Source: a virus. Taken from it: a DNA stretch of 24,397 nt. Of the stretch, positions 1 to 12,728 are shown one piece after another. The stretch is taken from IMG/VR virus record IMGVR_UViG_3300022658_000144, positions 1-24,397 of that record; one strand, 5' to 3'. Each line of letters starts with the position of its first letter. Position 1 is the stretch's first letter. The position numbers and the translations under genes are program-made. The notes beneath the pieces are model-generated. The model worked only from the letters and a program-made list of their open reading frames with translations, made no database searches and was not told the DNA's origin.

Positions 1-1
1 C

Positions 2-367
2 GGCATCCTGGCCTGGGCCGTGCAGGGCTGCCTGGACTGGCAGCGCCTCGGCCGGCTCGATCCGCCGCAGCAAGTCGTCGATGCCACCGAGGAGTACTTC
101 GAGGGTGAGGACGCGCTGGGTCGCTGGCTCGACGAGCGCTGCGTCCGCGAGCCCAACGCGAAGTCCCTGGCCGCCGAACTCTTTGCTGACTGGAAGCAGT
201 GGGCCGAGGCCGCGGGCGAGTTCATTGGTACGCAGAAGCGGTTTTCCGACCTGCTGCTGACACGCGGTGTCGAGAAGTGGCGCAACACGGCTGGCCTGCG
301 TGGCTTCCGTGGCTTGGGCCTCAAGTATCCGCAGGCCCCCGCATACACCCCCTACGGCGACAACTGA
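2..367 (+). CDS. Phage/plasmid primase-helicase (P4 family), C-terminal end, 5'-truncated by the window
   Basis: The frame is already open at the window edge and ends in TGA at 365-367, so only the last ~121 residues are present. The segment starting GILAWAVQGCLDWQR, followed by an acidic stretch (EEYFEGEDALGRWLDERC), matches the conserved C-terminal part of P4 alpha-like / D5-type primase-helicases, which prime and unwind DNA during phage or plasmid replication. The ATPase core (Walker motifs) and primase domain would lie upstream and cannot be seen. The tail contains an aromatic and basic region (WKQWAEAAGEFIGTQKRFSDLL) that may be a small winged-helix DNA-binding end. It is followed at 387-484 by iteron-like inverted repeats, a common neighbour of such genes. 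The family assignment is from recalled sequence patterns, not a search. Confidence 0.75.
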   Translation, partial: GILAWAVQGCLDWQRLGRLDPPQQVVDATEEYFEGEDALGRWLDERCVREPNAKSLAAELFADWKQWAEAAGEFIGTQKRFSDLLLTRGVEKWRNTAGLRGFRGLGLKYPQAPAYTPYGDN

Positions 368-386
368 TCGCTATACCGACACACCC

Positions 387-484
387 GACTGACGGATCTG
401 ACGGACTTCCACGTAACTCTCTACACGTGCGCGTGACGCGCGCCTCATGGAGGGTTTCGATGTAATCCGTCAGATCCGTCAGTC
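387..484. repeat. 19-bp perfect inverted repeat made of tandem 9-mers (candidate origin iterons or operator)
   Basis: Left arm 387-405 and right arm 466-484 are exact reverse complements over 19 bp. Each arm is itself two tandem 9-mers: CTGACGGAT then CTGACGGAC at 389-406, and ATCCGTCAG twice at 465-482. The 60-nt centre holds a smaller hairpin (GCGCG/CGCGC, 429-433 with 437-441, 3-nt loop). It fills the 140-bp gap between the primase-like gene and the resolvase. Iterons beside a P4-type replication gene suggest an origin or repressor site; that role is inference. Confidence 0.75.
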
Positions 485-507
485 CGAACCGAAAAAGGAC
501 TGAAACC

Positions 508-972
508 ATGATGACGACGATCCTGGCCATCGACTTGGGCACCCAAACCGGCTGGGCACTGGTCAGCCGTGACGGCAGCATCACCAGCGGCAGCCAATCC
601 TTCAAACCGCAGCGCTTCGAAGGCGGCGGCATGCGATTCCTGCGCTTCAAGCGCTGGCTCAACGACATCAAGCAGTGCAACGACGGCATCGAGCAGGTGG
701 CCTTTGAAGAGGTCCGCCGCCACGCTGGGGTGGACGCCGCCCACGCCTACGGAGGCTTCCTGGCGCACCTCACAGCCTGGTGCGAGCACCACAACATCCC
801 GTACCAAGGCGTGCCAGTCGGCACGATCAAGCGGCACGCCACCGGCAAGGGCAACGCGAGCAAGGGCGACATGGTCAACGCCGCCTGTCGTCGTGGCCAT
901 GCACCGGCTGACGACAACGAAGCGGATGCCCTGGCGATCCTGTACTGGGCCATCGAGACACAGGAGGTGTGA
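508..972 (+). CDS. RuvC-fold Holliday-junction resolvase-like nuclease
   Basis: A 154-residue protein of the RuvC/RNase H-fold resolvase type. These enzymes cut branched DNA formed during phage recombination, replication or packaging. Visible catalytic acids fit the fold: D9 in AIDLGTQTGW (first strand), E67/E68 in VAFEEV, and D136/D140 in ADDNEADALAI near the C-terminus. The segment GTIKRHATGKGNASKGDMV is the usual substrate-binding region before the last acids. ATG 508 is preceded by AAAAAGGA as ribosome binding site; the second codon is also ATG. It sits where lambda-like phages carry ninG/rap or rus-type resolvases, and its stop at 970-972 is followed directly by the next gene at 974. The exact subfamily cannot be assigned without a search. 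Confidence 0.85.
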   Translation: MMTTILAIDLGTQTGWALVSRDGSITSGSQSFKPQRFEGGGMRFLRFKRWLNDIKQCNDGIEQVAFEEVRRHAGVDAAHAYGGFLAHLTAWCEHHNIPYQGVPVGTIKRHATGKGNASKGDMVNAACRRGHAPADDNEADALAILYWAIETQEV

Positions 973-973
973 C

Positions 974-1192
974 ATGAAAGTTCCCAGCTACCAGTACCGC
1001 TGCCCCTTGGGCCGTCTGCAGCCCCAGACTCCGGATCTGGACGCCATCAAGCAGCAAGGTTGGCGTGACCAGCACATCCTGGTCGTCTCAGAAACGGACG
1101 AGCGGCTGGACTATTTCGAGCGTCAGTTCGTGAAACGAATCGGTGAGCGTCTGTACGGCACCGGCCAGGAGGAGGGTGGTCGGCATGACTGA
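974..1192 (+). CDS. Small phage protein of unknown function (72 aa)
   Basis: Begins one base after the resolvase stop, with AGGAGGTG (963-970) as a strong ribosome binding site just before the ATG. Its last codons overlap the start of the next gene (ATG 1185, stop 1190-1192), so translation is probably coupled to both neighbours. The product is charged, with an N-terminal YQYRCPLG and a C-terminal half rich in E, R and F (LDYFERQFVKRIGERLYG). I see no recognisable catalytic motif, signal peptide or membrane segment. The position in a compact early-gene run and the strong start region support a real gene; the function is unknown. Confidence 0.7.
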   Translation: MKVPSYQYRCPLGRLQPQTPDLDAIKQQGWRDQHILVVSETDERLDYFERQFVKRIGERLYGTGQEEGGRHD

Positions 1193-1585
1193 GCATCGCG
1201 GAACTTGGACCATCGACGACGTGGCGGCTCGCTTCGAGGAGGCGGCCAGCACCGGACGGCGACTGCCTCCGGTGCGAGTGCAGGGCTACTACACCGTCTG
1301 GCCGGTCTTCATCCGGCAGGAGTGGGAGCCTTGGCAGCAGACGAGAAGGCCTACCGACCCTTCCCGCCGAGCCCAGAGGACATCGACCGCATGCTCGAGG
1401 TCATGCGCTGGGTGCGGTGGCTGGAGGTCGAGCAACGGCATCTCGTCTGGATGCGGGCCAAGCGCTATGGCTGGCGCGACATCACGATCCGCTTTGCCTG
1501 CGATCGAACGACCGCGTGGCGGCGCTGGCAGCGGGCATTGCAACTCGTCGTCGATAGGCTGAATGGTGGCGAATGCAGTCCGTAG
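1185..1585 (+). pseudogene. DUF6362-like helix-turn-helix protein, broken by a 1-nt loss near 1329-1331
   Basis: From ATG 1185 the frame reads MTEHRGTWTIDDVAARFEE and RLPPVRVQGYYTVWPVFIRQ as expected for DUF6362, then changes to unrelated arginine/serine-rich sequence and stops at 1562. The expected continuation (LAADEKAYRPFPPSPEDIDR, then RWLEVEQRHLVWMRAKRYGW and ITIRFACDRTTAWRRWQRAL) lies in the -1 frame and stops at 1583-1585. Adding one C at the CC of 1329-1330 restores a 133-residue protein of normal length. The C-terminal half contains a sigma-region-4-like helix-turn-helix (around RDITIRFACDRTTAWRRW), so the intact protein probably binds DNA. It occupies the position of the late antiterminator Q in lambda, but no sequence similarity to Q is claimed. 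The break may be a real mutation or a homopolymer sequencing error. Confidence 0.8.
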
Positions 1586-1787
1586 GGAAATAGCGTGTTT
1601 CGGCTCGGGTGTGCGGCAGTCGTCATGTATCAGGGGTGATGAGCGAGTTTTGCCCCTGCAACAAAACAGTCTGATTCGACGTACATTGACGGCTATGGTC
1701 GCGAAAGATGCGTGACCGAGAGGTAGGGCCCCAGGCAAAAGGGGTCCTTCCTCGCCAAAATCCCATGCGGGGGGCGCGAGCGCGGCA

Positions 1788-1837
1788 TTTGCCTAGCGTC
1801 AGGGTGCAAACCCAGGTTTGCGGGGTTTGCAGTTTGC
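1788..1837. repeat. Cluster of TTTGC motifs with overlapping inverted repeats
   Basis: TTTGC occurs at 1788-1792, 1817-1821, 1826-1830 and 1833-1837, with the inverse GCAAA at 1806-1810. GCAAACC (1806-1812) pairs with GGTTTGC (1815-1821) around a 2-base centre, or GCAAACCC (1806-1813) pairs with GGGTTTGC (1823-1830), so two mutually exclusive hairpins are possible. This looks like a protein-binding site cluster or a small RNA switch; neither is shown. Confidence 0.5.
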
Positions 1838-1874
1838 AGCCAGCCCATCCGCCTCATCCCCACCATCCTTTTTG

Positions 1875-1908
1875 AACCCGCCCACGGTCTGCTGTCGGCG
1901 GGTTTTTT
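1875..1908 (+). terminator. Intrinsic terminator 1
   Basis: AACCCGCC (1875-1882) pairs perfectly with GGCGGGTT (1897-1904) across a 14-nt loop, and the stem runs into six Ts (1903-1908). This is a standard Rho-independent terminator for plus-strand transcription leaving the early region. Confidence 0.8.
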
Positions 1909-1936
1909 CGTTTCTCCCTTGGTGCTTTGGCGCTTG

Positions 1937-1978
1937 GCGGCCCGTGACAGGGTGTTCCTGTCCGGGCCGCGTTTTTTT
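1937..1978 (+). terminator. Intrinsic terminator 2, ending 13 nt before the methyltransferase start
   Basis: GCGGCCCG (1937-1944) pairs with CGGGCCGC (1963-1970) and GACAGG (1946-1951) pairs with CCTGTC (1957-1962). This gives a 14-bp stem with one bulged T and a 5-nt loop, followed by seven Ts (1972-1978). It is stronger than terminator 1. The next start codon is at 1992, which leaves no room for a promoter between terminator and gene. Confidence 0.88.
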
Positions 1979-1991
1979 CCGGTGAACCCAC

Positions 1992-3407
1992 ATGCTCAAC
2001 GTCGAATACCGCCAGGTCGAGGCGCTGATTCCCTACGCCCGCAATCCACGCACGCACAGCGAGGATCAGGTGGCCAAGATCGCCGCCAGCATCGTCGAAT
2101 ACGGCTGGACCAATCCGGTGCTGGTCGACGGTGACAACGGCATCATCGCGGGCCATGGTCGGCTGGCCGCTGCCCGCAAGCTGGGCCTGGATCAGGTGCC
2201 GGTCATTGAACTGGCCCATCTGACCCCGACCCAGAAGCGTGCCTACGTCATTTCCGACAATCGGCTGGCACTCGACGCCGGCTGGAACGAGGAACTGCTG
2301 GCGCTGGAACTGGCCGAGTTGTCCGAGGCGGGGTACGACCTGGCCTTGACCGGCTTCGATGACACCGAGATCGAGGCCTTCCTCTCCGAGGAGGTCGTTT
2401 CCGACGACGCTGACTTGGAGCAGCAGGAGGCAACCGACAGCGATGAACCGGACGCCGCCGACGAAGTGCCCGATGCTCCGGTGGTACCGGTGTCCCGCAC
2501 TGGCGACGTCTGGGCCATCGGCCCGCACCGTCTGATCTGCGGCGATGCCAGCGATCGGGACGTGGTCGCCACGTTGATGCAGGGCGAATCGGCCCGCCTG
2601 TGCTTCACCTCGCCGCCCTACGGCAACCAGCGCGACTACACCTCCGGCGGCATCGCCGATTGGGACGGCTTGATGCGCGGCGTCTTCGCCAGCCTGCCGA
2701 CGGCCGACGACAGCCAGGTGCTGGTCAATCTCGGGCTGATCCACCGCGACAACGAGGTCATCCCGTATTGGGACGGCTGGCTGAACTGGATGCGCACCCA
2801 AGGCTGGCGGCGCTTTGCCTGGTATGTCTGGGATCAGGGGCCGGGGATGCCGGGCGACTGGGCAGGTCGGTTCGCCCCGAGCTTCGAGTTCGTGTTCCAC
2901 TTCAACCGCGCCAGTCGCAAGCCGAACAAGATCGTGCCCTGCAAGCACGCAGGCCAGGAATCGCATCTGCGCGCCGACGGGTCCTCCACCGCCATGCGCG
3001 GCAAGGACGGCCAGGTCAATGGCTGGACCGCTGCCGGTCAGCCAACCCAGGACTTCCGCATCCCCGACTCGGTGATCCGCGTCATGCGGCACAAGGGCAA
3101 GATCGGTCAGGACATCGACCACCCGGCCGTGTTCCCGGTCGCGCTGCCGGAGTTCGTGATCGAGGCCTACACCGACGCGGGCGACATCGTGTTCGAGCCC
3201 TTCGGTGGCAGCGGCACCACGATGCTGGCGGCACAGCGCACTGGTCGCGTCTGCCGCACGGTCGAGATCGCGCCAGAGTACGTGGACGTCGCTGTTCGGC
3301 GCTTCCAGCAGAACCATCCCGACGTTCCCGTCACGCTTGTGACCACCGGCCAGTCCTTCGACGATGTGGCCAAGGAGCGTCTGGCCACCCCGGAGGTTGA
3401 GCAATGA
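1992..3407 (+). CDS. ParB-domain DNA methyltransferase with TSPPY motif
   Basis: A 471-residue two-domain protein. Residues ~1-125 form a ParB/sulfiredoxin-like domain (LIPYARNPRTHSEDQVAKIA, GIIAGHGRLAAARKLGL). An acidic linker follows (~135-170), then a DNA methyltransferase domain. The catalytic motif TSPPY is at 206-210 and the S-adenosylmethionine-binding FEPFGGSGTT begins at 401, so the order is catalytic first, cofactor second (beta class). TSPPY is the form typical of N4-cytosine methyltransferases, though N6-adenine activity cannot be excluded. GGTGA at 1980-1984 is the only ribosome-site candidate for ATG 1992. The stop overlaps the next start as ATGA. Phage methyltransferases of this kind can shield DNA from restriction or mark regulatory sites; no partner nuclease is present, so it is an orphan enzyme here. 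Confidence 0.92.
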   Translation: MLNVEYRQVEALIPYARNPRTHSEDQVAKIAASIVEYGWTNPVLVDGDNGIIAGHGRLAAARKLGLDQVPVIELAHLTPTQKRAYVISDNRLALDAGWNEELLALELAELSEAGYDLALTGFDDTEIEAFLSEEVVSDDADLEQQEATDSDEPDAADEVPDAPVVPVSRTGDVWAIGPHRLICGDASDRDVVATLMQGESARLCFTSPPYGNQRDYTSGGIADWDGLMRGVFASLPTADDSQVLVNLGLIHRDNEVIPYWDGWLNWMRTQGWRRFAWYVWDQGPGMPGDWAGRFAPSFEFVFHFNRASRKPNKIVPCKHAGQESHLRADGSSTAMRGKDGQVNGWTAAGQPTQDFRIPDSVIRVMRHKGKIGQDIDHPAVFPVALPEFVIEAYTDAGDIVFEPFGGSGTTMLAAQRTGRVCRTVEIAPEYVDVAVRRFQQNHPDVPVTLVTTGQSFDDVAKERLATPEVEQ

Positions 3408-4672
3408 GCACCGCCTGGTTTGCCGACAAGATCGAGCAGTGGCCGACGGCCAAGCTCCTCCCCTACACCCGCAATGCCCGAACCCACTCGGACGAGCAGG
3501 TGGCGCAGATCGCAGCCTCGATCGCCGAGTTCGGCTTCACGAATCCGATCCTGGCCGGCAGCGACGGCGTGATCGTGGCTGGCCACGGACGGCTCGCGGC
3601 AGCGCAAAAGCTGGGGCTTGAGGTAGTGCCGGTGGTCGTGCTGGACCATCTGAGTCAGACACAGCGCCGGGCGCTGGTGATCGCGGACAACCGCATCGCT
3701 GAGAACGCGGGCTGGGATGACGCCATGCTGCGCATCGAGATCGCCGCCCTGCAGGACGACGACTTCGACCTGTCGCTGACCGGCTTCGACGCGGATGCGC
3801 TGGCTGAGTTGATGGCAGGGGACGAACCGGATGCGGAGGGCGAAACCGATGACGACGCGGTGCCCGAGGTCAGCGAAACGCCCGTCTCCCGCCCCGGCGA
3901 CGTCTGGCTGCTCGGCGGCCACCGCCTGCTGTGCGGCGACTCCACCGTGGCCGAGAGCTACGAGCATCTGCTCAAGGGCGAGCCAGTGGACATGGTCTTC
4001 ACTGACCCGCCCTACAACGTCAACTACGCCAACAGCGCCAAGGACAAGATGCGCGGCAAGGACCGCGCGATCCTGAACGACAACCTGGGCGACGGCTTTT
4101 ACGACTTCCTGCTGGCCGCCTTGACGCCGACCATCGCCCACTGCCGTGGCGCGGTCTATGTGGCGATGTCCTCCAGCGAACTGGATGTGCTGCAGGCGGC
4201 ATTCCGTACGGCGGGCGGCAAATGGTCGACCTTCATCATCTGGGCCAAGAACACCTTCACGCTGGGACGAGCCGACTACCAGCGCCAGTACGAGCCGATC
4301 CTCTACGGCTGGCCGGAGGGCAAGCAGCGTCACTGGTGCGGCGATCGTGACCAGGGCGACGTCTGGAATATCAAGAAGCCGCAGAAGAACGATCTGCACC
4401 CGACCATGAAGCCGGTGGAACTGGTCGAGCGCGCTATCCGCAATTCCAGCCGGCCGGGCGATGTGGTCATGGACCCGTTTGGCGGCTCAGGCACCACGCT
4501 GATCGCCGCAGAAAAGACGGGTCGGCTGGCGCGGCTGATCGAACTCGACCCCAAGTACGTCGACGTGATCGTGCGCCGCTGGCAGGACTGGACAGGCCAG
4601 CAGGCCACGCGAGAGGCAGATGGCAGACCGTTTGATGACATGGCCCCAGACGTGACGGAGGATGTTGAATGA
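3404..4672 (+). CDS. ParB-domain DNA methyltransferase with DPPY motif
   Basis: A 422-residue protein with the same architecture as its upstream neighbour: ParB-like N-terminus (LLPYTRNARTHSDEQVAQIA, VIVAGHGRLAAAQKLGL), a short acidic linker, then a beta-class methyltransferase domain. The catalytic TDPPYN begins at residue 200 and the cofactor-binding MDPFGGSGTT at 356. DPPY points to N6-adenine methylation, unlike the TSPPY of the first enzyme, so the two probably modify different bases or sites. The domains are similar but clearly diverged, so this is not a recent duplication. It starts inside the ATGA shared with the previous stop and ends in an ATGA shared with the next gene, indicating one translationally coupled unit. 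No restriction endonuclease is encoded alongside. Confidence 0.93.
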   Translation: MSTAWFADKIEQWPTAKLLPYTRNARTHSDEQVAQIAASIAEFGFTNPILAGSDGVIVAGHGRLAAAQKLGLEVVPVVVLDHLSQTQRRALVIADNRIAENAGWDDAMLRIEIAALQDDDFDLSLTGFDADALAELMAGDEPDAEGETDDDAVPEVSETPVSRPGDVWLLGGHRLLCGDSTVAESYEHLLKGEPVDMVFTDPPYNVNYANSAKDKMRGKDRAILNDNLGDGFYDFLLAALTPTIAHCRGAVYVAMSSSELDVLQAAFRTAGGKWSTFIIWAKNTFTLGRADYQRQYEPILYGWPEGKQRHWCGDRDQGDVWNIKKPQKNDLHPTMKPVELVERAIRNSSRPGDVVMDPFGGSGTTLIAAEKTGRLARLIELDPKYVDVIVRRWQDWTGQQATREADGRPFDDMAPDVTEDVE

Positions 4673-4917
4673 AGCAGTCGCGCGCTATGTCGCTGCTGGA
4701 GTCGATCGCCAACGTGCTGGTTGGCTACGGGGTGGCGGTCATGACCCAGATGCTGGTGTTCCCGCTGTTTGGCTGGCACGCCAGCGTGCAGGACAACCTG
4801 ACGATCGGCCTGATCTTCACCGGCGTGTCGCTGGTCAGGAGCTTTCTGCTTCGCCGGGTGTTCGAGTCGATCCGGGTGCGTCAGTCTGCCAGGGTTTCTT
4901 CGACGATCGCGCAGTGA
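4669..4917 (+). CDS. Small two-helix membrane protein (DUF7220-like)
   Basis: An 82-residue protein with two hydrophobic stretches: about residues 11-33 (IANVLVGYGVAVMTQMLVFP) and 44-60 (LTIGLIFTGVSLVRSFLL), the second ending in basic residues. The start MKQSRAMSLLESIANVLVGY resembles the DUF7220 family of small phage membrane proteins as I recall it. The role is unknown; it lacks the features of a classical holin-endolysin pair because no lysozyme gene adjoins it. The ATG overlaps the second methyltransferase stop (ATGA at 4669-4672). Its 3' end overlaps the minus-strand gene ending at 4881 by 37 bp, a convergent arrangement. Confidence 0.75.
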   Translation: MKQSRAMSLLESIANVLVGYGVAVMTQMLVFPLFGWHASVQDNLTIGLIFTGVSLVRSFLLRRVFESIRVRQSARVSSTIAQ

Positions 4918-5246
4918 ATCACAAAGCCTGTCAGGTAGGGCAGGCCGCGCGGGATGCCGTAGGCCTTGCTGGTCTGGCGTCCGATCTTCCAGCCCATCCA
5001 CTGTTGGGTGGCAGCGTTGATCGCGTCAGCCAGGGTGTGCCCACGGAACAGTCCGTTCTGCACCTCGTCGGCGAAGTGGCGGCCATGGCGGCTGTCGAGG
5101 AAGGTCTTTACCGCGTCCAGGGGTTGGCCGGTGGCGTCCGAGATGGAGTTCATCGCCAGGGGCCAAGCGGCGTCGGCGTGCTCGTTCATCGTTCCCCAAA
5201 AGCCCCAGGCTTCGTTCTGGCTGGCGGGGATCGTGGTGTGTGTCAT
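4881..5246 (-). CDS. Conserved phage/plasmid accessory protein of unknown function (121 aa)
   Basis: The ATG at 5246 has AAGGAG six bases upstream on the minus strand. The 121-residue product contains segments such as NEAWGFWGTMNEHADAAWPL, HGRHFADEVQNGLFRGHTL and QWMGWKIGRQTSKAYGIPRG, which look like a conserved hypothetical family found on proteobacterial mobile elements. I recognise no enzymatic motif and no membrane segment. It is the last gene of the minus-strand cassette, has its own copy of the 28-nt repeat 39 nt upstream, and overlaps the plus-strand membrane-protein gene at their 3' ends. I assign no function. Confidence 0.8.
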   Translation of the reverse strand: MTHTTIPASQNEAWGFWGTMNEHADAAWPLAMNSISDATGQPLDAVKTFLDSRHGRHFADEVQNGLFRGHTLADAINAATQQWMGWKIGRQTSKAYGIPRGLPYLTGFVIHCAIVEETLAD

Positions 5247-5285
5247 CTCGGGCTCCTTGGGGTTGATCGTTGCGACGTCCGTAGT

Positions 5286-5313
5286 AACGCGCTGTTCGAT
5301 TGAGAAGCCAAGC
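5286..5313 (-). promoter_or_regulatory. 28-nt intergenic repeat, copy 1
   Basis: On the plus strand the copy begins AACGCGCTG and ends AAGCCAAGC; the middle differs from the other two copies (6295-6322, 6596-6623). It lies 39 nt upstream of the start codon at 5246. Read on the minus strand it begins GCTTGGCTT. TTGGCT followed 17 nt later by GTTACT could be a weak promoter; an operator or RNA leader is equally possible. Confidence 0.7.
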
Positions 5314-5344
5314 TGTTCGTGGTGGCGTTCTCGATCAATATCGA

Positions 5345-5704
5345 TCAGCCCAGACGGGCCACGTACCGGGCGTAATCACCGCCCGATGGGTCGACGTAGA
5401 GGTAGGGGCGTCCCGGGGCAAAGACTTCGACGCACAGGCGTCCTTGGCCGTAGTAGCCGCCCTTGCCACGCAACCAGTCGCGGGAGGCCAGCAGATTGCT
5501 GGCGAAGCCATCAAAGGCTTCAGGGGTCAAGGTGATGGTCTCCGTGACGTAGACCGCGTAGTCGCCAGAGGCTGCCATCTCACGCAGGTTGCCGGGCTTG
5601 CGGGCGAACGGCAGGCGCAGGCCGAGTTCCTCGACCTGCAGCGTGCCGCCGTCCCATGGGATCTCGATGGGCTTGCGCTCCACCGTGAGGACGAGAGTCT
5701 TCAT
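5345..5704 (-). CDS. Hypothetical protein (119 aa), second gene of a two-gene minus-strand unit
   Basis: I choose ATG 5704 because it has GGAG upstream (AACGGAGCCACCGC) and gives a natural N-terminus, MKTLVLTVERKPIEIPWDGG. A longer reading from 5737 would overlap the upstream gene. The start is 13 nt after the DUF3489-like stop, and this gene has no 28-nt repeat of its own, so the two are probably co-transcribed. The protein has beta-rich segments and a region GGYYGQGRLCVEVFAPGRPY, but no motif I can tie to a function. It resembles small conserved hypothetical proteins of plasmids and integrative elements. Confidence 0.75.
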   Translation of the reverse strand: MKTLVLTVERKPIEIPWDGGTLQVEELGLRLPFARKPGNLREMAASGDYAVYVTETITLTPEAFDGFASNLLASRDWLRGKGGYYGQGRLCVEVFAPGRPYLYVDPSGGDYARYVARLG

Positions 5705-5717
5705 GCGGTGGCTCCGT

Positions 5718-6254
5718 TCAAGCGACGCGGTAGACACGCTCGGCGCCCTTGACCTTGTCGGAGGTGATGGTCAAACCGAGCTTCTTCTTCAAGGCTCCCG
5801 CAAAGGTGCCGCGCACGGTGTGGGCCTGCCAGCCAGTGGCATCGCAGATCTGCGCGATGGTGGCGCCCTCGGGGCGTTGCAACATCCGGATGACCTCCGC
5901 CTGCTTGCTGCTCTCGCGGGTGCGGGGCTTGGACTCCTTGGTGGCGTCCTTGGCGCTGTCGTTGGCCCAAGTGGCTTCAGCGGCTGCCACGGCGGCCTCC
6001 GTCTCCGGGTCCAGGTCCGGGACCAGGGGCGCGGGGGCTGGATGTTGGCGCCCCATGGCGTCGTAGCCCTCGGCGGCGACGAACCAGTCGGTGCCGTCGT
6101 AGGTGATCAGGGCGCGCTTGAACAAGCCGTCGATCACCTTCTGGCGGGCGCCGCCTTTGATGTTGTCCGGATACCAGCTGATCTTGCCGGCGTTGTGTTC
6201 GAGGGCGTAGGCCAGGATCGCGTGCTGGGCCGGGGTGAGTTGCATCTTGCTCAT
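5718..6254 (-). CDS. DUF3489-like protein with C-terminal winged-helix region
   Basis: ATG 6254 (MSKMQLTPAQHAILAYALEH) follows AAGGAG with six-base spacing; an upstream in-frame ATG at 6320 would run through the 28-nt repeat and is rejected. The protein is 178 residues. The N-terminal part resembles a small helical domain (KISWYPDNIKGGARQKVIDG), the middle is an alanine/proline-rich linker, and the C-terminus (SKQAEVIRMLQRPEGATIAQ, ICDATGWQAHTVRGTFAGAL, KGAERVYRVA) is the DUF3489 signature, with a helix-turn-helix look that suggests DNA binding. It may regulate the cassette, but this is inference. It leads a two-gene unit with the 119-residue gene and has repeat copy 2 located 40 nt upstream of its start. 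Confidence 0.85.
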   Translation of the reverse strand: MSKMQLTPAQHAILAYALEHNAGKISWYPDNIKGGARQKVIDGLFKRALITYDGTDWFVAAEGYDAMGRQHPAPAPLVPDLDPETEAAVAAAEATWANDSAKDATKESKPRTRESSKQAEVIRMLQRPEGATIAQICDATGWQAHTVRGTFAGALKKKLGLTITSDKVKGAERVYRVA

Positions 6255-6294
6255 GTGCTGCTCCTTGCAGGGTGGTTGATCGGGTGACGTGATG

Positions 6295-6322
6295 AACGCG
6301 CTGTTCGGGAGTGAAGCCAAGC
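6295..6322 (-). promoter_or_regulatory. 28-nt intergenic repeat, copy 2
   Basis: Same ends as copy 1 (AACGCGCTGTTCG and AAGCCAAGC on the plus strand) and identical length, 40 nt upstream of the start codon at 6254. On the minus strand CCAAGC just upstream of the repeat can pair with the repeat's GCTTGG, and GAAC with GTTC at its end, so a small RNA structure is possible. Confidence 0.72.
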
Positions 6323-6351
6323 GCTTTCTGCTTGGGTTCGACGGTTATTGA

Positions 6352-6558
6352 TCAGCTGTTGGCCGGGGCCGACTTATTGGCTTTCCTGGCCTTCTTGGCG
6401 TGTTCGACGCCGGCGTTGAAGGCGGCTTCGAGGGCGCTACGAACGCACCAGACCGCGACGTCGTGGAAATCGAGTCCGTCCGAGCGGCGCGTCTCCAGCG
6501 TTTCGATGCTGAGGTGCTCGCGGGCGATCTGGGTCAGGAGTTGCTCGATCTGGGTCAT
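6352..6558 (-). CDS. DUF6900-like small protein (68 aa)
   Basis: ATG 6558 is preceded on the minus strand by AAGGA with seven-base spacing. The 68-residue product begins MTQIEQLLTQIAREHLSIET and continues TRRSDGLDFHDVAVWCVRSA then LEAAFNAGVEHAKK, which fits the small DUF6900 family as I recall it, seen on proteobacterial plasmids, integrative elements and phages. It has no catalytic motif or membrane segment, and its C-terminus is basic. It is the first gene of the minus-strand cassette, transcribed away from the terminase genes. Repeat copy 3 lies 37 nt upstream. Confidence 0.8.
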   Translation of the reverse strand: MTQIEQLLTQIAREHLSIETLETRRSDGLDFHDVAVWCVRSALEAAFNAGVEHAKKARKANKSAPANS

Positions 6559-6595
6559 GTCCGTGTCCTTGGATGGGGTTGCTGATGAACGAATG

Positions 6596-6623
6596 AACGC
6601 GCTGCTTCGGAGTAAAGCCAAGC
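6596..6623 (-). promoter_or_regulatory. 28-nt intergenic repeat, copy 3
   Basis: AACGCGCTG...AAGCCAAGC as in copies 1 and 2, with CTTCGGAGTA in the middle; 37 nt upstream of the start codon at 6558. It lies in the 117-bp divergent gap between the minus-strand cassette and the terminase small subunit (6676). Confidence 0.7.
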
Positions 6624-6675
6624 GGAATCCGGAGGAATGACGAACAAATGACTGAAGGGACCAGAGGTCATCCCG

Positions 6676-7212
6676 ATGGGCATCTCGATACGCGCATACG
6701 CCCGACATCGGGGCGTGACCGACACCGCCGTCCATAAGGCGATCCGGGCCGGCCGCATCACTCCGGAGCCGGATGGAACGATCGACATTGGTCGTGCCGA
6801 CAGCGAGTGGGTGCGCAACTCAGAACCGGCGCAGTCCGGCACGCGAGCCAAAGCGGTCAAGGTTGCCGTGCCAGACGGTGCCGACGCGGCCAGTGGTGCT
6901 GGCACTGCTCTGCCCGCGGGCGGCACGTCGCTGCTTCAGGCGCGCACCGTCAACGAGGTGGTGAAGGCGCAGACCAACAAGGTGCGGCTGGCTCGCCTGA
7001 AAGGGGAACTGGTGGATCGCCCGCAAGCGATCGCCCATGTGTTCAAGCTCGCGCGAGCCGAGCGCGATGCATGGCTGAACTGGCCGGCGCGCATCTCCGC
7101 GCAGATGGCAGTCAGGCTTGGCATTGAGCCGCACACGATGCACGTGGCGTTGGAAGCGGCCGTGCGCGAGCACTTGCAAGAACTCGGCGATATGCGTCCG
7201 CGAGTCGACTGA
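6676..7212 (+). CDS. Terminase small subunit-like protein (Nu1-type)
   Basis: A 178-residue protein starting with a helix-turn-helix (YARHRGVTDTAVHKAIRAGR) as in Nu1/terminase small subunits, which bind the packaging start site on phage DNA and hand it to the large subunit. After an alanine/glycine-rich linker comes a helical region (VRLARLKGELVDRPQAIAHV, FKLARAERDAWLNWPARISA) that matches small-subunit C-terminal halves. ATG 6676 has AGAGGT eight bases upstream. Its stop overlaps the large-subunit start by one base (TGATG), as expected for a coupled pair. The cos or pac site should be near, but I cannot recognise it. Confidence 0.87.
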   Translation: MGISIRAYARHRGVTDTAVHKAIRAGRITPEPDGTIDIGRADSEWVRNSEPAQSGTRAKAVKVAVPDGADAASGAGTALPAGGTSLLQARTVNEVVKAQTNKVRLARLKGELVDRPQAIAHVFKLARAERDAWLNWPARISAQMAVRLGIEPHTMHVALEAAVREHLQELGDMRPRVD

Positions 7213-9179
7213 TGATGGATCTCGACTACGAAGGCGCCGAAGAAGTGGAACGGGCGTGGCGGGAGGGGCTCACGCCCGATCCGCTGCTCACCGTATCCGA
7301 GTGGTCCGATCGCCACCGCGTGCTGTCGAGCAAGGCATCGGCCGAACCGGGTCGCTGGCGCACCAGCCGCACGCCGTATCTCAAGGCGATCATGGACTGC
7401 TTGTCGCCGACCTCTCCGGTCGAGCGCGTGGTGTTCATGAAGGCCGCCCAGCTCGGTGCCACCGAGATGGGGTCGAACTGGATCGGCTACGTGATTCACC
7501 ACGCCCCCGGTCCGATGATGGCGGTGTGGCCGACAGTGGAGATGGCCAAGCGCAACTCCAAGCAGCGGATCGACCCGCTGATCGAGGAGTCCGGCGTTCT
7601 GGCCGAGTTGATCGCTCCGGCGCGCAGCCGTGATTCAGGCAACACCATCCTGGCCAAGGAGTTCCGAGGTGGCGTGCTGGTGATGACCGGCGCCAACAGT
7701 GCGGTGGGCTTGCGCTCGATGCCGGTGCGCTACCTGTTCCTCGACGAGGTCGACGGGTATCCGCTGGACGTCGAAGGCGAAGGTGACGCGATCTCGCTGG
7801 CCGAAGCACGCACGCGAACCTTTGCGCGCCGCAAGATCTTCATCGTCTCCACCCCGACTATCTCGGGGGCGAGTTCGATCGAGCGGGAGTACGACGCCAG
7901 TGACCAGCGGCGCTACTTCGTTCCGTGCCCGCACTGCAGCCACCGGCAATGGCTACGGTTCGAGCAACTGCGCTGGGATAAGGGGGCACCGGAGACGGCG
8001 GCCTACGTGTGTGAGTCTTGCGACACGGCGATCGCCGAGCACCACAAGTCCTGGATGCTCGAGCACGGTGAGTGGCGGGCGATGTTTCCCGATGGGAACG
8101 GCAAGACGGCGGGTTTTCACCTGTCCTCGCTCTACAGCCCCGTCGGCTGGCGCAGCTGGCGTGACATCGCCACTGCGTGGGAGGCAGCCGTCAGCAAGGA
8201 GTCCGGGTCGGCTGCCGCAATCAAAACGTTCAAGAACACCGAGCTCGGGGAGACCTGGGTCGAGGAAGGCGAGGCGCCAGATTGGCAGCGCCTGATCGAG
8301 CGGCGGGAGGATTACGCCGTGGGAACGGTTCCGGTCGGTGGCCTGCTCCTGGTGGGTGGTGCCGACGTGCAGAAGGATCGGATCGAAGCATCGGTCTGGG
8401 CCTTCGGCCGGGGCAAAGAGTCCTGGTTGGTCGAGCACCGCGTCCTGATGGGCGATACGTCCCGCGATGCGGTCTGGAGCCGACTGGCCGACATGCTGGG
8501 CGAGACCTGGACCCACGCATCGGGCGCGGTCATGCCATTGGTCCGGTTCGCGCTCGACACCGGCTTTGCCACGCAGGAAGCCTATGCCTTCGTGCGATCG
8601 CGCCGGGATGCGCGGGTGATGGCGGTCAAGGGCGTGGCCCGAGGGGCTGCCCTGATCGGAACGCCGACGGCCGTGGACGTCAGCCAAGGCGGCAAGAAGC
8701 TGCGTCGAGGCATGAAGGTCTATTCGGTGGCGGTCGGCATCGCCAAGCTGGAGTTCTACAACAACCTGCGCAAGAGCGCGGACGTGGGCGAGGACGGTGT
8801 CCAGATGGCCTATCCAGTCGGCTATGTCCACCTGCCCAAGATCGACGCGGAGTTCATCCAGCAACTCTGCGCTGAGCAGCTGATCACCCGGCGCGATCGC
8901 AACGGCTTCCCCATCCGGGAGTGGCAAAAGATGCGGGAGCGCAACGAAGCGCTCGACTGCTACGTCTACGCCCGCGCCGCCGCGTCGAGTGCGGGACTGG
9001 ACCGCTTCGAGGACCGCCACTGGCGAGAACTGGAGCGCCAACTTGGGCTCGACCCACCTGAGGTCGAGCATGAACTGAACCCTGACGAGGCCACCGACAC
9101 CGGTGGCCTCGTCGCATCTGGAGACGCGAAAACGTCCCGCCCCATGCGGCGCGTGATTCGTAGCCGCTGGATCTCTTAG
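7212..9179 (+). CDS. Terminase large subunit, GpA family
   Basis: A 655-residue packaging motor protein of the lambda gpA type. The ATPase part shows the GpA-type Walker A variant (KAAQLGATE at residues 77-85) and Walker B LFLDEVDGYP with D178/E179. Cysteine pairs CPHCSH and CESCD around residues 240-270 look like a zinc-binding loop. The nuclease part shows acids D385 (GGADVQKDRIEASVW), D449 (RFALDTGF) and D582 (NEALDCYVYARAA), the typical GpA arrangement. Length is normal for the family. It translocates DNA into the prohead through the portal and cuts the concatemer. Two adjacent ATGs (7212 and 7215) could start it; the first overlaps the small-subunit stop. A strong hairpin lies inside its 3' end (9084-9113). 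Confidence 0.97.
   Translation: MMDLDYEGAEEVERAWREGLTPDPLLTVSEWSDRHRVLSSKASAEPGRWRTSRTPYLKAIMDCLSPTSPVERVVFMKAAQLGATEMGSNWIGYVIHHAPGPMMAVWPTVEMAKRNSKQRIDPLIEESGVLAELIAPARSRDSGNTILAKEFRGGVLVMTGANSAVGLRSMPVRYLFLDEVDGYPLDVEGEGDAISLAEARTRTFARRKIFIVSTPTISGASSIEREYDASDQRRYFVPCPHCSHRQWLRFEQLRWDKGAPETAAYVCESCDTAIAEHHKSWMLEHGEWRAMFPDGNGKTAGFHLSSLYSPVGWRSWRDIATAWEAAVSKESGSAAAIKTFKNTELGETWVEEGEAPDWQRLIERREDYAVGTVPVGGLLLVGGADVQKDRIEASVWAFGRGKESWLVEHRVLMGDTSRDAVWSRLADMLGETWTHASGAVMPLVRFALDTGFATQEAYAFVRSRRDARVMAVKGVARGAALIGTPTAVDVSQGGKKLRRGMKVYSVAVGIAKLEFYNNLRKSADVGEDGVQMAYPVGYVHLPKIDAEFIQQLCAEQLITRRDRNGFPIREWQKMRERNEALDCYVYARAAASSAGLDRFEDRHWRELERQLGLDPPEVEHELNPDEATDTGGLVASGDAKTSRPMRRVIRSRWIS
9084..9113 (+). 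other. 13-bp perfect stem-loop in the 3' end of the terminase gene
   Basis: GACGAGGCCACCG (9084-9096) and CGGTGGCCTCGTC (9101-9113) pair perfectly around the tetraloop ACAC. No T-run follows, so it is not a standard terminator. It lies 66 nt before the terminase stop, at the border with the fibre-like genes. Confidence 0.75.
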
Positions 9180-9214
9180 ACCAAACGCCCGACCGAACGC
9201 CGACCTCAAGTGCC

Positions 9215-9574
9215 ATGAGCCTGCAATCCCAATTCAACAGCTTCGTGGTGCGCGTGGCCGAGCGCTTCGGTGGCGTGGAAGAGCGCACCGGAACCCTGGA
9301 CGGCCTGAAGACGGTCGCCAAGACCGATCTGGTCGCAGCGATCAACGAACTGGCGGATCGCCCGAGCACCGAGGGCGCAAACAAGACCTTCCAGTTCGTC
9401 CAGGTCTCGCCGGCCAGGGTCTGGACCGTGAACCACAACCTGGGTCTGCGGCCCTCCGTGTCCATCGTCGACAGCGGTGGCGCCGAGATCGAGGCCGACG
9501 TTCGCCACACGAGCCCGAACCAGCTCGTCATCTATTTCGCCATCCCGATGTCCGGGCTGGCCCGATTGACCTGA
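9215..9574 (+). CDS. Fibre-type structural protein, small (119 aa)
   Basis: The N-terminal half is helical (FNSFVVRVAERFGGVEERTG, LVAAINELADR), which could trimerise. The C-terminal half (FQFVQVSPARVWTVNHNLGL, PSVSIVDSGGAEIEADVRHT) is a beta-rich domain often found at the ends of phage fibre or tail-tip proteins. The next gene's C-terminus has a similar domain (FDVNHNFATRDVIVQVF), sharing VNHN and spacing, so the two may be related. The start ATG 9215 has no clear ribosome site. The gene sits between terminase and gpW, where lambda has nothing. A capsid- or tail-attached fibre is the best guess; the exact role is unknown. Confidence 0.7.
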   Translation: MSLQSQFNSFVVRVAERFGGVEERTGTLDGLKTVAKTDLVAAINELADRPSTEGANKTFQFVQVSPARVWTVNHNLGLRPSVSIVDSGGAEIEADVRHTSPNQLVIYFAIPMSGLARLT

Positions 9575-9595
9575 TCCACCTGAAAGGAACCTCGA

Positions 9596-10387
9596 ATGTC
9601 CCGCAAGCAACTCTCTGACCTCGACTTTGGTGGGGTCGCCCGCGTCCGCAACCTGCCGTCGCCGGTCAACGCCGATGAACCGGCCCGCCTGGCGGACCTG
9701 AACTCCGCCGTCGAGGGCTTGGCGTGGAAGGACTCCAGCCGAGTCGCGTCCCAGACCAACCTCAACCTATCCTCGCCAGGCGCTTCGATCGACGGCGTGA
9801 CGATGACGGTGGGCGATCGCGTCCTGGTCAAGGCCCAGACCCTGGGAGCTGAGAACGGCATCTACATCTGGAATGGCGCCGCCATTGCCATGACGCGTGC
9901 CCTGGACGCGAATACGGCGGCAGAGCTCGAGCAGGCCATCACGACGGTTGAGGAAGGCACTTCTGCTGGCACCAGTTGGCGCCAGTCGGTCGTGAACTTC
10001 GTGCTCGACACCACAACGGTCACCTGGCTCCAGTTCGGTGCGACGGTGGGAGCGGCCTCCGAGACGAGTTCCGGCATCGCCGAGATCGCCACGCAAGCAG
10101 AGACGGACGGTGGCACGGACGATCTGCGCATCGTCACCCCGCTCAAGCTCAACAACTGGACGAACAAGCCGCGTCGCGCGCAAGCCACCATTGGCGACGG
10201 CAGCAGCACCCAGTTCGACGTCAACCACAACTTCGCCACCCGCGATGTGATCGTCCAGGTGTTCCAGGCCTCGGGCAGCTACGAGCAGGTCAACTGCGAT
10301 GTGAGCCTGCCGACCGTGAACACGGCGCGCCTGAACTTCGCCAGTGCGCCGGCCAGCAATGCGTACCGCGTCGTGGTGATGGGCTAA
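9596..10387 (+). CDS. Tail/head fibre-like protein (263 aa)
   Basis: ATG 9596 has AAAGGAACC upstream. Residues ~20-145 contain a domain typical of phage fibres (ASIDGVTMTVGDRVLVKAQT, GAENGIYIWNGAAIAMTRAL, then VEEGTSAGTSW and TTTVTWLQFG). This is followed by SSGIAEIATQAETDGGTDDL and RIVTPLKL, the short repeat seen in many tail-fibre proteins. The C-terminal ~65 residues form the same VNHN-type beta domain as the preceding gene. Such proteins are fibre shafts or adhesin-like appendages on the virion. The location among packaging and head genes instead of after the tail-tip genes is unusual and suggests a head-attached fibre or an inserted extra module. No enzymatic motif is visible. Confidence 0.8.
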   Translation: MSRKQLSDLDFGGVARVRNLPSPVNADEPARLADLNSAVEGLAWKDSSRVASQTNLNLSSPGASIDGVTMTVGDRVLVKAQTLGAENGIYIWNGAAIAMTRALDANTAAELEQAITTVEEGTSAGTSWRQSVVNFVLDTTTVTWLQFGATVGAASETSSGIAEIATQAETDGGTDDLRIVTPLKLNNWTNKPRRAQATIGDGSSTQFDVNHNFATRDVIVQVFQASGSYEQVNCDVSLPTVNTARLNFASAPASNAYRVVVMG

Positions 10388-10390
10388 TCC

Positions 10391-10987
10391 GTGAAGGACC
10401 TGTCCTATCGCGTCGTGCCAGTGGTCGCCGTCTTGCCGGCGGCGTCCACCAACCTGGCGGGTGTGATCGTTCGACTCGCCAGCGACAACCGCCCGTACTG
10501 GTGCGACGGCACGACCTGGTTCGATGTGCTGCTGGCGGTCGGCAGCGATCCCCGCGTGACGACTGCTCGGATCACTGCTGACGTCATCAACAGCACCACG
10601 ACGTTGGCCAATGCAACGGGTCTGGCGATTTCGATGGATGCCAACACCACGTACGGCATTTCGGCTCGGGTGCTGTTTCAGACTGCCGCTCCCCAAACTG
10701 GTATCCGCCTGACGCAGACCGCACCAACTGGAGCCACTGTCTTCGCACAGTGGAACACCCCGACCTCGCTCACGGCGAACACCGTGTCGAACCAGCGTGC
10801 GATTGACAGCGGCACCGCCACGAGCGGCATCGACACGGCCAATACCACCACCCTGGCGAGCGCCGAGATCGTCGTCGTCAACGGAGCGACGGCAGGAAGT
10901 CTGCAGATCCGCTTTGCATCCGAAGTGGCTGCATCCAACGCGGTGCTCAAGGTGGGCAGCCACGTCGTGGCTCACAAGATCGTCTGA
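10391..10987 (+). CDS. Putative virion appendage protein with jelly-roll-like C-terminus (198 aa)
   Basis: It starts with GTG at 10391, three bases after the previous stop; no better ATG start exists nearby, so coupling to the upstream gene is likely. The N-terminal ~50 residues (YRVVPVVAVLPAASTNLAGV, RPYWCDGTTWFDVL) look like a fibre-attachment segment. The C-terminal part (NSTTTLANATGLAISMDANT, TYGISARVLFQTAAPQTGIR, ending VLKVGSHVVAHKIV) has the alternating pattern of a beta-sandwich seen in phage receptor-binding or decoration domains. With the two preceding genes it forms a three-gene fibre module. The function is inferred from fold impression only. Confidence 0.7.
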   Translation: MKDLSYRVVPVVAVLPAASTNLAGVIVRLASDNRPYWCDGTTWFDVLLAVGSDPRVTTARITADVINSTTTLANATGLAISMDANTTYGISARVLFQTAAPQTGIRLTQTAPTGATVFAQWNTPTSLTANTVSNQRAIDSGTATSGIDTANTTTLASAEIVVVNGATAGSLQIRFASEVAASNAVLKVGSHVVAHKIV

Positions 10988-10989
10988 AC

Positions 10990-11211
10990 ATGGCCTACAC
11001 GCTCGAACAACTTGAAGCCCTCGAAGGTGCGCTGGTTCGCGGCGAGCGGCGCGTCACCTTCGCAGACAAGACAGTCGAGTACCGAGGTGTCGATGAGCTG
11101 AAGGAAGCGATCCGGCTCGTCAAAGTGGGACTGGCTCAACAGGCAGCCGACACGGGCCTTTTGCCTCCCGTGGTCCGGCAGGTCCGTGTCAACACGACGA
11201 AGGGGTTCTGA
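10990..11211 (+). CDS. gpW-like head-tail joining protein
   Basis: The 73-residue protein has the size and pattern of lambda gpW: an N-terminal helix (TLEQLEALEGALVRGERRVT), a short hairpin (TFADKTVEYRGVDELKEAIR) and a second helix. gpW binds the portal after packaging and prepares the head for tail attachment. The gene sits directly before the portal gene as in lambda, and its stop overlaps the portal ATG (TGATG at 11209-11213). The C-terminal tail (PPVVRQVRVNTTKGF) is longer than lambda's but similar in kind. Confidence 0.85.
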   Translation: MAYTLEQLEALEGALVRGERRVTFADKTVEYRGVDELKEAIRLVKVGLAQQAADTGLLPPVVRQVRVNTTKGF

Positions 11212-12728
11212 TGGGTTACTTCCAGAACCTTCGGCGACGACTCTTCGGCAGCACCCCGACGTATGACGGTGTGGGTGGTGGCCGTCGGGCCCTGGCGTGG
11301 ATGGTGGGCAATCCGGGTGCCGTGGGCGCCTTGCTGCAGACGCAGAACGAACTGCGCGCCAAGAGCCGCGATCTGGTCCGCCGCAATGCCTGGGCCAATG
11401 CCGCGCTGGAAGCCTACGTGGCCAATGCGATCGGCACGGGCATCAAGCCGCAGTCCATGGTGGCTGACCCAGCAGCCCGGGAATCGATTCAAGCCCTGTG
11501 GCGGGACTGGACGCAGGAAGCCGATGCTGCGGGCCTGACCGACTTCTACGGACTGCAGGCGATGGCCTGCCGCGCCATGCTCGAAGGCGGGGAGGTGCTG
11601 GTGCGTCTGCGCTATCGCCGTCCCGAAGATGGCTTGCCAGTAGCGCTGCAGATTCAGGTGCTCGAACCCGAACACTTGCCGGTGACGCTCAACACTACGG
11701 CCGAGAACGGAAACCTGGTGCGCGCCGGTATCGAGTTCGATCGGCTCGGGCGCCGCGTGGCATATCACCTGTACCGCTCCCATCCCCAGGATGGGCTGCT
11801 GGCGCCGATGTCCGGCGACGGTGGCATGAGCACGGTGCGCGTCGATGCAGCCGAGATTATCCACATGTTCCGTCCGCTGCGCCCGGGACAGATCCGGGGT
11901 GAGCCCTGGCTGGCACGGGCACTCGTAAAGCTCCACGAACTGGACCAGTACGACGACGCAGAACTCGTGCGCAAGAAGACGGCGGCCATGTTCGCAGGCT
12001 TCATCACCCGTCTGTCCCCGGAGGACAGCCTGCTGGGCGAAGGATCAGCAGATGCCAACGGCGTGGCGCTCTCGGGCCTGGAGCCCGGGACGATGCAGAT
12101 CCTGGAGCCTGGCGAGGACATCAAGTTCTCGCAGCCGGCCGATGTCGGCGGCTCCTACTCGGAGTTCCTGCGCATGCAGTTCCGAGCGGTGGCGGCCGCC
12201 ATGGGAGTGACCTATGAGCAACTGACCGGTGACCTCACACAGGTCAACTACTCGTCCATCCGGGCGGGTCTCCTGGAGTTCCGTCGCCGCGTCGAGCATC
12301 TGCAGCACGGCGTGGTCGTGCATCAGCTCTGCCGGCCGATCTGGGAAGCCTGGATGGCTCAAGCCGTCCTGGAGGGCGCGCTGGTCCTGCCGGGCTACAT
12401 GCGTGGTGGCGCAACGCGTCGGCGGGAGTGGCAGGCCGTGAAGTGGATCCCGCAGGGCTGGCAGTGGGTGGATCCGCTGAAGGAAACCGAGGCGATGAAG
12501 TCCGCCATCCGATCCGGGCTGATGAGCCGATCGGAGGCGATTTCTGCCAACGGCTACGACGCGGAGGACGTCGATCGCGAGATCGCCGCCGACAACGCCC
12601 GGGCCGACGCATGGGGGTTGGTGCTCGATACCGACCCTCGCCATGACCAGGGACCCGCAACAGGCGCGAACCCCAGGTCCTCGAATCTTGCGTCCGCCAA
12701 CGCGGACGCGCTAACCCAAGGCACCTGA
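11211..12728 (+). CDS. Portal protein, lambda family
   Basis: A 505-residue portal of the lambda gpB family. Conserved blocks are visible: VRRNAWANAALEAYVANAIG, WRDWTQEADAAGLTDFYGLQ, MLEGGEVLVRLRYR, HMFRPLRPGQIRGEPWLARA, and the run ILEPGEDIKFSQPADVGGSY followed by MGVTYEQLTGDLTQVNYSSI. The portal forms the dodecameric ring at one head vertex through which DNA passes and to which gpW-type proteins and tail attach. Length is normal for the family. The C-terminal ~30 residues are polar and likely disordered. An 8-bp hairpin (12690-12709) lies near its stop, and the protease gene begins one base after it. Confidence 0.97.
   Translation: MGYFQNLRRRLFGSTPTYDGVGGGRRALAWMVGNPGAVGALLQTQNELRAKSRDLVRRNAWANAALEAYVANAIGTGIKPQSMVADPAARESIQALWRDWTQEADAAGLTDFYGLQAMACRAMLEGGEVLVRLRYRRPEDGLPVALQIQVLEPEHLPVTLNTTAENGNLVRAGIEFDRLGRRVAYHLYRSHPQDGLLAPMSGDGGMSTVRVDAAEIIHMFRPLRPGQIRGEPWLARALVKLHELDQYDDAELVRKKTAAMFAGFITRLSPEDSLLGEGSADANGVALSGLEPGTMQILEPGEDIKFSQPADVGGSYSEFLRMQFRAVAAAMGVTYEQLTGDLTQVNYSSIRAGLLEFRRRVEHLQHGVVVHQLCRPIWEAWMAQAVLEGALVLPGYMRGGATRRREWQAVKWIPQGWQWVDPLKETEAMKSAIRSGLMSRSEAISANGYDAEDVDREIAADNARADAWGLVLDTDPRHDQGPATGANPRSSNLASANADALTQGT
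12690..12709 (+). other. 8-bp perfect stem-loop at the end of the portal gene
   Basis: GCGTCCGC (12690-12697) pairs with GCGGACGC (12702-12709) around CAAC. No T-run follows, so it is not a simple terminator. It lies 20 bases upstream of the protease start at 12730. Confidence 0.6.

Follow-up and report, generated by a model that had tools for sequence, protein, structure and literature searches.

In phage lambda, the last gene on the early side is followed directly by the promoter pR', with tandem -10 elements at a 6-nt spacing, a leader of about 200 nt (6S), the terminator tR' and then the late genes. The second -10 element of pR' pauses RNA polymerase for the loading of Q. It is onto polymerase halted at this sigma-dependent, promoter-proximal pause that lambda Q loads (PMC7171158). 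AlpA of Pseudomonas aeruginosa and GafZ of the Caulobacter GTA are small antiterminators too, and the terminators that they overcome stand at the beginning of the target operon or close to it (PMC7969949, PMC11150451), and the cos sites of lambda, N15 and 21 have been described together with the packaging specificity of TerS (PMC4669245).

The window, by which we mean the whole stretch of DNA analyzed, is a 24.4-kb IMG/VR virus record. It carries, in order, a RuvC-like resolvase gene, a small unknown gene and a DUF6362 gene on the right arm, two methyltransferase genes and DUF7220, followed by four opposite-strand genes, TerS, TerL and the portal, protease and capsid genes, which we take to be such from reading their translations. 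The four minus-strand genes (4881-6735), between the methyltransferase unit and TerS, include DUF3489 and DUF6900. The principal genes are as follows.

1185-1585, plus strand: DUF6362 gene (PF19889, by Pfam), last gene of the right arm, candidate antiterminator
1992-3407, plus strand: DNA methyltransferase 1, ParB_N and N6_N4_Mtase domains (Pfam, PHROG)
3404-4672, plus strand: DNA methyltransferase 2, ParB_N and N6_N4_Mtase domains (Pfam)
4669-4917, plus strand: gene for a small DUF7220 protein, last of the unit (Pfam)
6676-7212, plus strand: TerS, terminase small subunit (PHROG 57), whose HTH helix predicts the class of the cosB repeats
7212-9179, plus strand: TerL, GpA-type terminase large subunit (Pfam GpA_ATPase, GpA_nuclease)

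The lambda layout recurs here in the same order, from the last early-side gene with a promoter-like element (P) just behind it to the leader, the terminator and the genes beyond. The locus differs from lambda in that no lambdaQ-family protein was found, the upstream element of the promoter lies at the -35 position, cos falls within the leader, and the first genes encode DNA methyltransferases where lambda has lysis genes. On balance we think it probable that this is a late switch of the Q/pR'/tR' type laid across a lambda-type cos site, with the terminators T1 and T2 as its exit gate and DUF6362 as its Q-like factor.

Terminators ahead of the methyltransferase unit

Two hairpins and a ribosome-binding site precede the methyltransferase 1 gene.

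1875-1908, plus strand: terminator T1, hairpin 1875-1904, T-run to 1908
1937-1978, plus strand: terminator T2, hairpin 1937-1970, T-run 1972-1978, present in a sublineage only
1981-1985, plus strand: ribosome-binding site GGTGA, recognized from its sequence, before the ATG at 1992

The initial annotation had proposed two strong terminators at these positions, and both folds were better than those of 200/200 shuffled sequences. The T1 stem (1875-1904), reading AACCCGCC-C-ACGG...CTGT-C-GGCGGGTT, folded at -20.1 kcal/mol (z -3.8; 0/200 shuffles equal it), while the bulged T2 stem (1937-1970), reading GCGGCCCG-(T)-GACAGG...CCTGTCCGGGCCGC, folded at -28.9 kcal/mol by itself and at -30.8 kcal/mol within 56 nt (z -3.9; 0/200 shuffles equal it). 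In both, a GC-rich stem on the sense strand is followed directly by a T-run, which is the sequence signature of an intrinsic (Rho-independent) terminator, and T1 and T2 are predicted to be strong ones. Only 13 nt separate the end of the T2 T-run from the ATG of methyltransferase 1, leaving no room for a promoter, as had been claimed. A consensus scan of positions 1-12000 found no sigma70-like promoter, P being missed because it lacks TTGACA. The predicted terminators and the lack of a fitting promoter between them and the gene also support the further claim that the methyltransferase would be reached by read-through only. A simple terminator scan of 12 kb found 6 terminators against 6.9 expected in shuffles, which is no excess, and missed T2 because of its bulge.

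Conservation was examined in 160 loci with the same methyltransferase, retrieved from viral contigs and bacterial genomes; 159 were usable, and this set and its 68 non-redundant members include the window itself. A strong hairpin with a T-run was found within 130 nt 5' of methyltransferase 1 in 156/159 loci (65/68 non-redundant), and the terminator ended mostly 25-32 nt before the start-codon column. The two-hairpin form belongs to the sublineage, and most relatives have a single hairpin. Control stretches ahead of other genes gave a terminator in 4/68 loci for the second methyltransferase, 1/46 for TerS and 0/45 for TerL, and random positions gave 4-10/68. With a laxer finder, a hairpin of dG<=-10 followed by a T-run appeared in 52/204 dinucleotide shuffles of these GC-rich leaders, and the case for termination therefore rests on conservation and not on any single hairpin. 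In L130, L138 and L157 the usual AACCCGCC...GGCGGGTT stem was swapped for unrelated stems, so that function was kept rather than sequence; this replacement argues for selection on termination. Within the T2 sublineage, the inner stem showed paired changes in 11 sequences.

A promoter subclass of the form CAACATCCTGAGG... (L022, L040, L118 and similar loci) carries an added hairpin, GAAGGCCAC...GTGGCCTTC, shortly past the start, possibly a third terminator, T0.

The promoter-like element P and the DUF6362 protein

1657-1699, plus strand: promoter-like element P, with TGCAACA at 1657-1663, the -10 element TACATT at 1682-1687 and a second -10-like (pause) element TATGGT at 1694-1699

The RNA start at P is predicted near 1694, giving a leader of about 215-217 nt from P to T1; in relatives the median leader, from P to the strongest terminator, was 235 nt. 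The pattern of P is [TC]GCAACA or TGTCKCRT, 15-18 nt, TAnnnT, 5-6 nt and nAnnnT. It was present once per interval, upstream of cos, in 152/152 intervals between DUF6362 and the methyltransferase, a count that is not an independent test since the pattern was derived from the same related loci, whereas its near-absence elsewhere is: a scan of 1.9 Mb on both strands gave only 2 further matches, each at the corresponding position of a locus with no detected DUF6362. The upstream element takes two forms, TGCAACA and TGTCGCAT. Among 30 non-redundant loci of the TGCAACA form, a second hexamer with A2 and T6 lay 6 nt past the -10 element in 28/30 and 5 nt past it in 2/30, with other offsets giving <=5/30. 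Lambda pR' reads TAAATT-N6-AACGAT, with the same tandem -10 spacing as P. Two marks of the pR'-tR' type were found in the sequence, namely a promoter with a -10-like pause element just downstream and a terminator between P and the downstream genes, and P is probably active as a promoter at which a pause would occur. A search of the phage collection gave no isolated phage that carried the complete promoter module, only distant DUF6362 genes adjoining cos in Rhodobacter phages. The likeness to lambda tR' drawn in the initial annotation holds for the layout, which resembles Q-pR'-tR', but cos, P (1657-1699) and the DUF6362 candidate had been missed; it was a good guess from incomplete anatomy.

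The DUF6362 gene lies directly 5' of P in most loci. In the window it is frameshifted by a 1-nt deletion near 1328-1331, as judged by alignment with the intact relative L044; the deletion is either genuine or was introduced in assembly. AlphaFold models of two different representatives (pLDDT 77-78) consisted of one N-terminal helix, a low-confidence loop and a four-helix sigma4-like domain. Q21 chains (6p1a, 6p18, 6p1b, 6jnx) aligned to these models over residues 6-129/131 with Z 6.1-8.8. The first model matched 6p1a_C at Z 7.7 over 111 residues (4.5 A) and the second matched 6p18_Q at Z 8.8 over 100 residues (5.6 A), values (7.7-8.8) that a helical HTH protein can also reach through a commonplace arrangement of its helices. 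Sigma region 4 chains aligned to the C-terminal half only (about 54-129). The predicted fold of DUF6362 may be sigma4/Q21-like over its whole length; in size and helix order the protein is similar to the phage 21 Q protein (Q21, PF06530), whose chains align with the models at full length.

The two proteins differ in sequence. DUF6362 gave no match to the PF06530 profile, belonging instead to PF19889, and profile comparison gave a probability of 7%, with no significant sequence similarity; the Q21-family profile was built on six sequences, because identical copies were all that came from a scan for more varied members of the Q21 family. A direct sequence link was considered and set aside, there being no PDB sequence match and a weak profile match. 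In 20 near-full contigs, searches with PF06530 (0/20) and with PF03589, the lambdaQ family (0/20, E. coli control positive), found nothing, as did PF06323, the Q82 family (0/20, run without a positive control). A literature search found no paper naming DUF6362. Phage PhiR49_2 (L336) has a comparable gene order, with a DNA adenine methylase gene beginning about 150 nt past a gene of the Q21 family.

The recognition helix of DUF6362, of type RTTAWRR or KTAQRH, co-varied with the upstream element of P (137:0 and 0:13), with 6 changes on the best tree but only a single independent pair that is well supported. As the gene adjoins P and a single change is well supported, linkage could also account for this. 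DUF6362 may bind P and act there in antitermination. It resembles AlpA and GafZ as a small candidate antiterminator whose target operon has a terminator at its beginning or close to it, but the AlpA and GafZ elements lie between -35 and -10, and within the tests made DUF6362 does not belong to their family.

Much of this could also be read as a unit boundary, with T1 and T2 closing an early right-arm operon and the methyltransferases held low and constant by leakage and poor starts, no antiterminator being involved. Terminators between units are ordinary, and the T-runs are interrupted in many relatives (TTTTGCTTTT), so that leakage is likely. Most relatives start methyltransferase 1 with TTG, or apparently CTG (ATTCTGAACACG...), which would throttle its translation further; the ATG start goes with the two-terminator sublineage. 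We nevertheless regard this reading as unlikely, since a boundary would have no need of a co-varying putative DNA-binding regulator, nor of a conserved promoter that carries a lambda-like pause element and sits past the early operon, ahead of the terminator. It is also rather improbable that DUF6362 does no more than activate P, with a sigma4-like domain that stands in for the missing -35 element, so that more initiation and leaky termination would be enough, an action likened in principle to that of T4 MotA. TGCAACA does stand at the -35 position of a promoter lacking TTGACA, and over the C-terminal half of DUF6362 the fit of sigma region 4 domains equals that of Q21. This reading does not, however, account for the second -10 element or for the near-universal terminator, the Q21 chains match DUF6362 over about 100 residues against about 60-77 for the sigma4 chains, and GafYZ joins activation with antitermination (PMC11150451). 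Both readings are weaker than a switch of the Q/pR'/tR' type.

The cos site within the leader

Bases 1742-1840 are predicted to form a lambda-type cos site comprising cosQ, cosN and cosB repeats.

1742-1751, plus strand: cosQ-like GGGTCCTTCC; lambda has GGGTCCTTTC at a like place before its right end
1770-1781, plus strand: cosN, predicted left end, ATGCG-GGGGGCGCGAGC, the plus strand predicted to be cut between 1769 and 1770, as at the RcKemmy ends
1805-1838, plus strand: cosB repeats TGCAAACC (1805-1812), GGTTTGC (1815-1821), GGTTTGCA (1824-1831) and GTTTGCA (1832-1838), predicted R-type TerS sites

ATGCG-GGGGGCGCGAGC lies 26 nt past GGGTCCTTCC, between DUF6362 and the terminators, and the cosQ-cosN module was present in 147/152 of the DUF6362-methyltransferase intervals. 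In lambda the right end has the sequence GGGTCCTTTC...TTACG and the left end GGGCGGCGACCT. The record of Rhodobacter phage RcKemmy, in which ParB is the first gene and DUF6362 the last, begins with GGGGGCGGAAGCGCG and ends with ...CTATGCG. These ends carry an 11-base 5' overhang, read from sequencing (PMC8601537). As in lambda-type cos sites, cosQ is thus followed by cosN at a lambda-like distance, and known physical ends are matched.

The cosB repeats have the form GTTNNCA, the middle letters falling into three classes, TG, CG and AC (GTTTGCA, GTTCGCA and GTTACCA). In 111/111 loci this class was the one given by the recognition helix of TerS, encoded 4-5 kb away: TDTAVHK or SDTAVHK went with TG, SDAAVRK with CG and SHVAVKK with AC. 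Changes of class numbered 4 on the TerS tree (HTH left out), 10 on the methyltransferase tree and 29 on the DUF6362 tree. The complete match and the fewest changes on the TerS tree indicate that the repeats are TerS sites of the cosB type, like those of lambda, 21 and N15. The first idea, that they were DUF6362 sites, was dropped because the repeat class tracks TerS and not DUF6362. A TerS sequence search of the PDB gave no useful match. Cos in the window shares cosQ, cosN and cosB with TerS-matched repeats with the cos sites of lambda, N15 and 21, but differs in its distance of about 5 kb from terS, an interval that contains methyltransferases and opposite-strand genes, and in having at least three repeat specificities within one family. 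VarioGold (PMC9658991), in which a Q-like gene lies close to cos, was set aside as a parallel, its cos being of another kind with a 3' overhang.

Several loci separate the terminator from cos. In L118 and L060 (Halotalea), cos is missing and no GpA terminase was found in the genome, its place being taken by HNH, terminase and portal genes presumed from their translations to be of HK97 type; P, an extra terminator and T1 before the methyltransferase are still present. L143 likewise lacks cos and keeps P and the terminator, and L145 keeps P while the terminator scan gave no match. In L234, where an insert has come between cosB and the methyltransferase, T1 is found on the methyltransferase side, and in AcaML1 cos is present and T1 absent. 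The presence of the terminator without cos in L118, L060 and L143, its staying with the gene in L234 and the reverse case of AcaML1 argue that it is part of transcription control and not of packaging.

In lambda (NC_001416, 108-150; L165), the inverted repeat of cosB R2-R1 forms a hairpin of -34 kcal/mol with TTTTT about 30 nt before nu1. That the hairpins belong to the cos or packaging machinery, or are an RNA-sensing attenuator, is very improbable: they do come directly after cosB, and lambda too has a strong hairpin and T-run between cosB and nu1, but the same separations from cos speak against it, as does the lack of any Rfam match in positions 1-7300. An attenuator with alternative pairing was rejected, as the leader was no more complementary to the 5' arm of T1 (5.4) than shuffles were (5.9).

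A proposed late switch

The terminators, the cos site, the architecture of P, the gene order and the co-variation can be read in the sequence; the timing of the switch we infer. In the proposed Q/pR'/tR'-type switch, host RNA polymerase would initiate at P near 1694, be held by the second -10-like element, then transcribe cos and stop at T1 or T2, leaving a leader transcript some 215 nt long. Once accumulated, DUF6362 would bind TGCAACA at the -35 position of P, load onto the paused polymerase and make it insensitive to terminators, as Q21 does, and the modified polymerase would continue past T1 and T2 to transcribe both methyltransferases and DUF7220. As P would lie on the right arm and these genes on the left, the unit would be readable only once the ends are joined.

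We give about even weight to the fuller claim that DUF6362 (PF19889) represents an undescribed antiterminator family acting from a -35-position element with a lambda-like pause, and that P and the terminators flank cos, so that methyltransferase expression needs both end-joining and the antiterminator. If true, this would provide a function for DUF6362, a protein family without a known one, and an antiterminator family distinct from those of Q21, lambdaQ and Q82. It would also describe a late switch that has cos as its leader RNA and ties the expression of DNA-modifying genes to end-joining. The correspondence between TerS and cosB gives a naturally occurring recognition code for the specificity of packaging. 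The module, in which P, cos, the regulator and the terminators are packed in 400 bases, occurs in >150 prophages and viral contigs, mostly of beta- and gammaproteobacteria.
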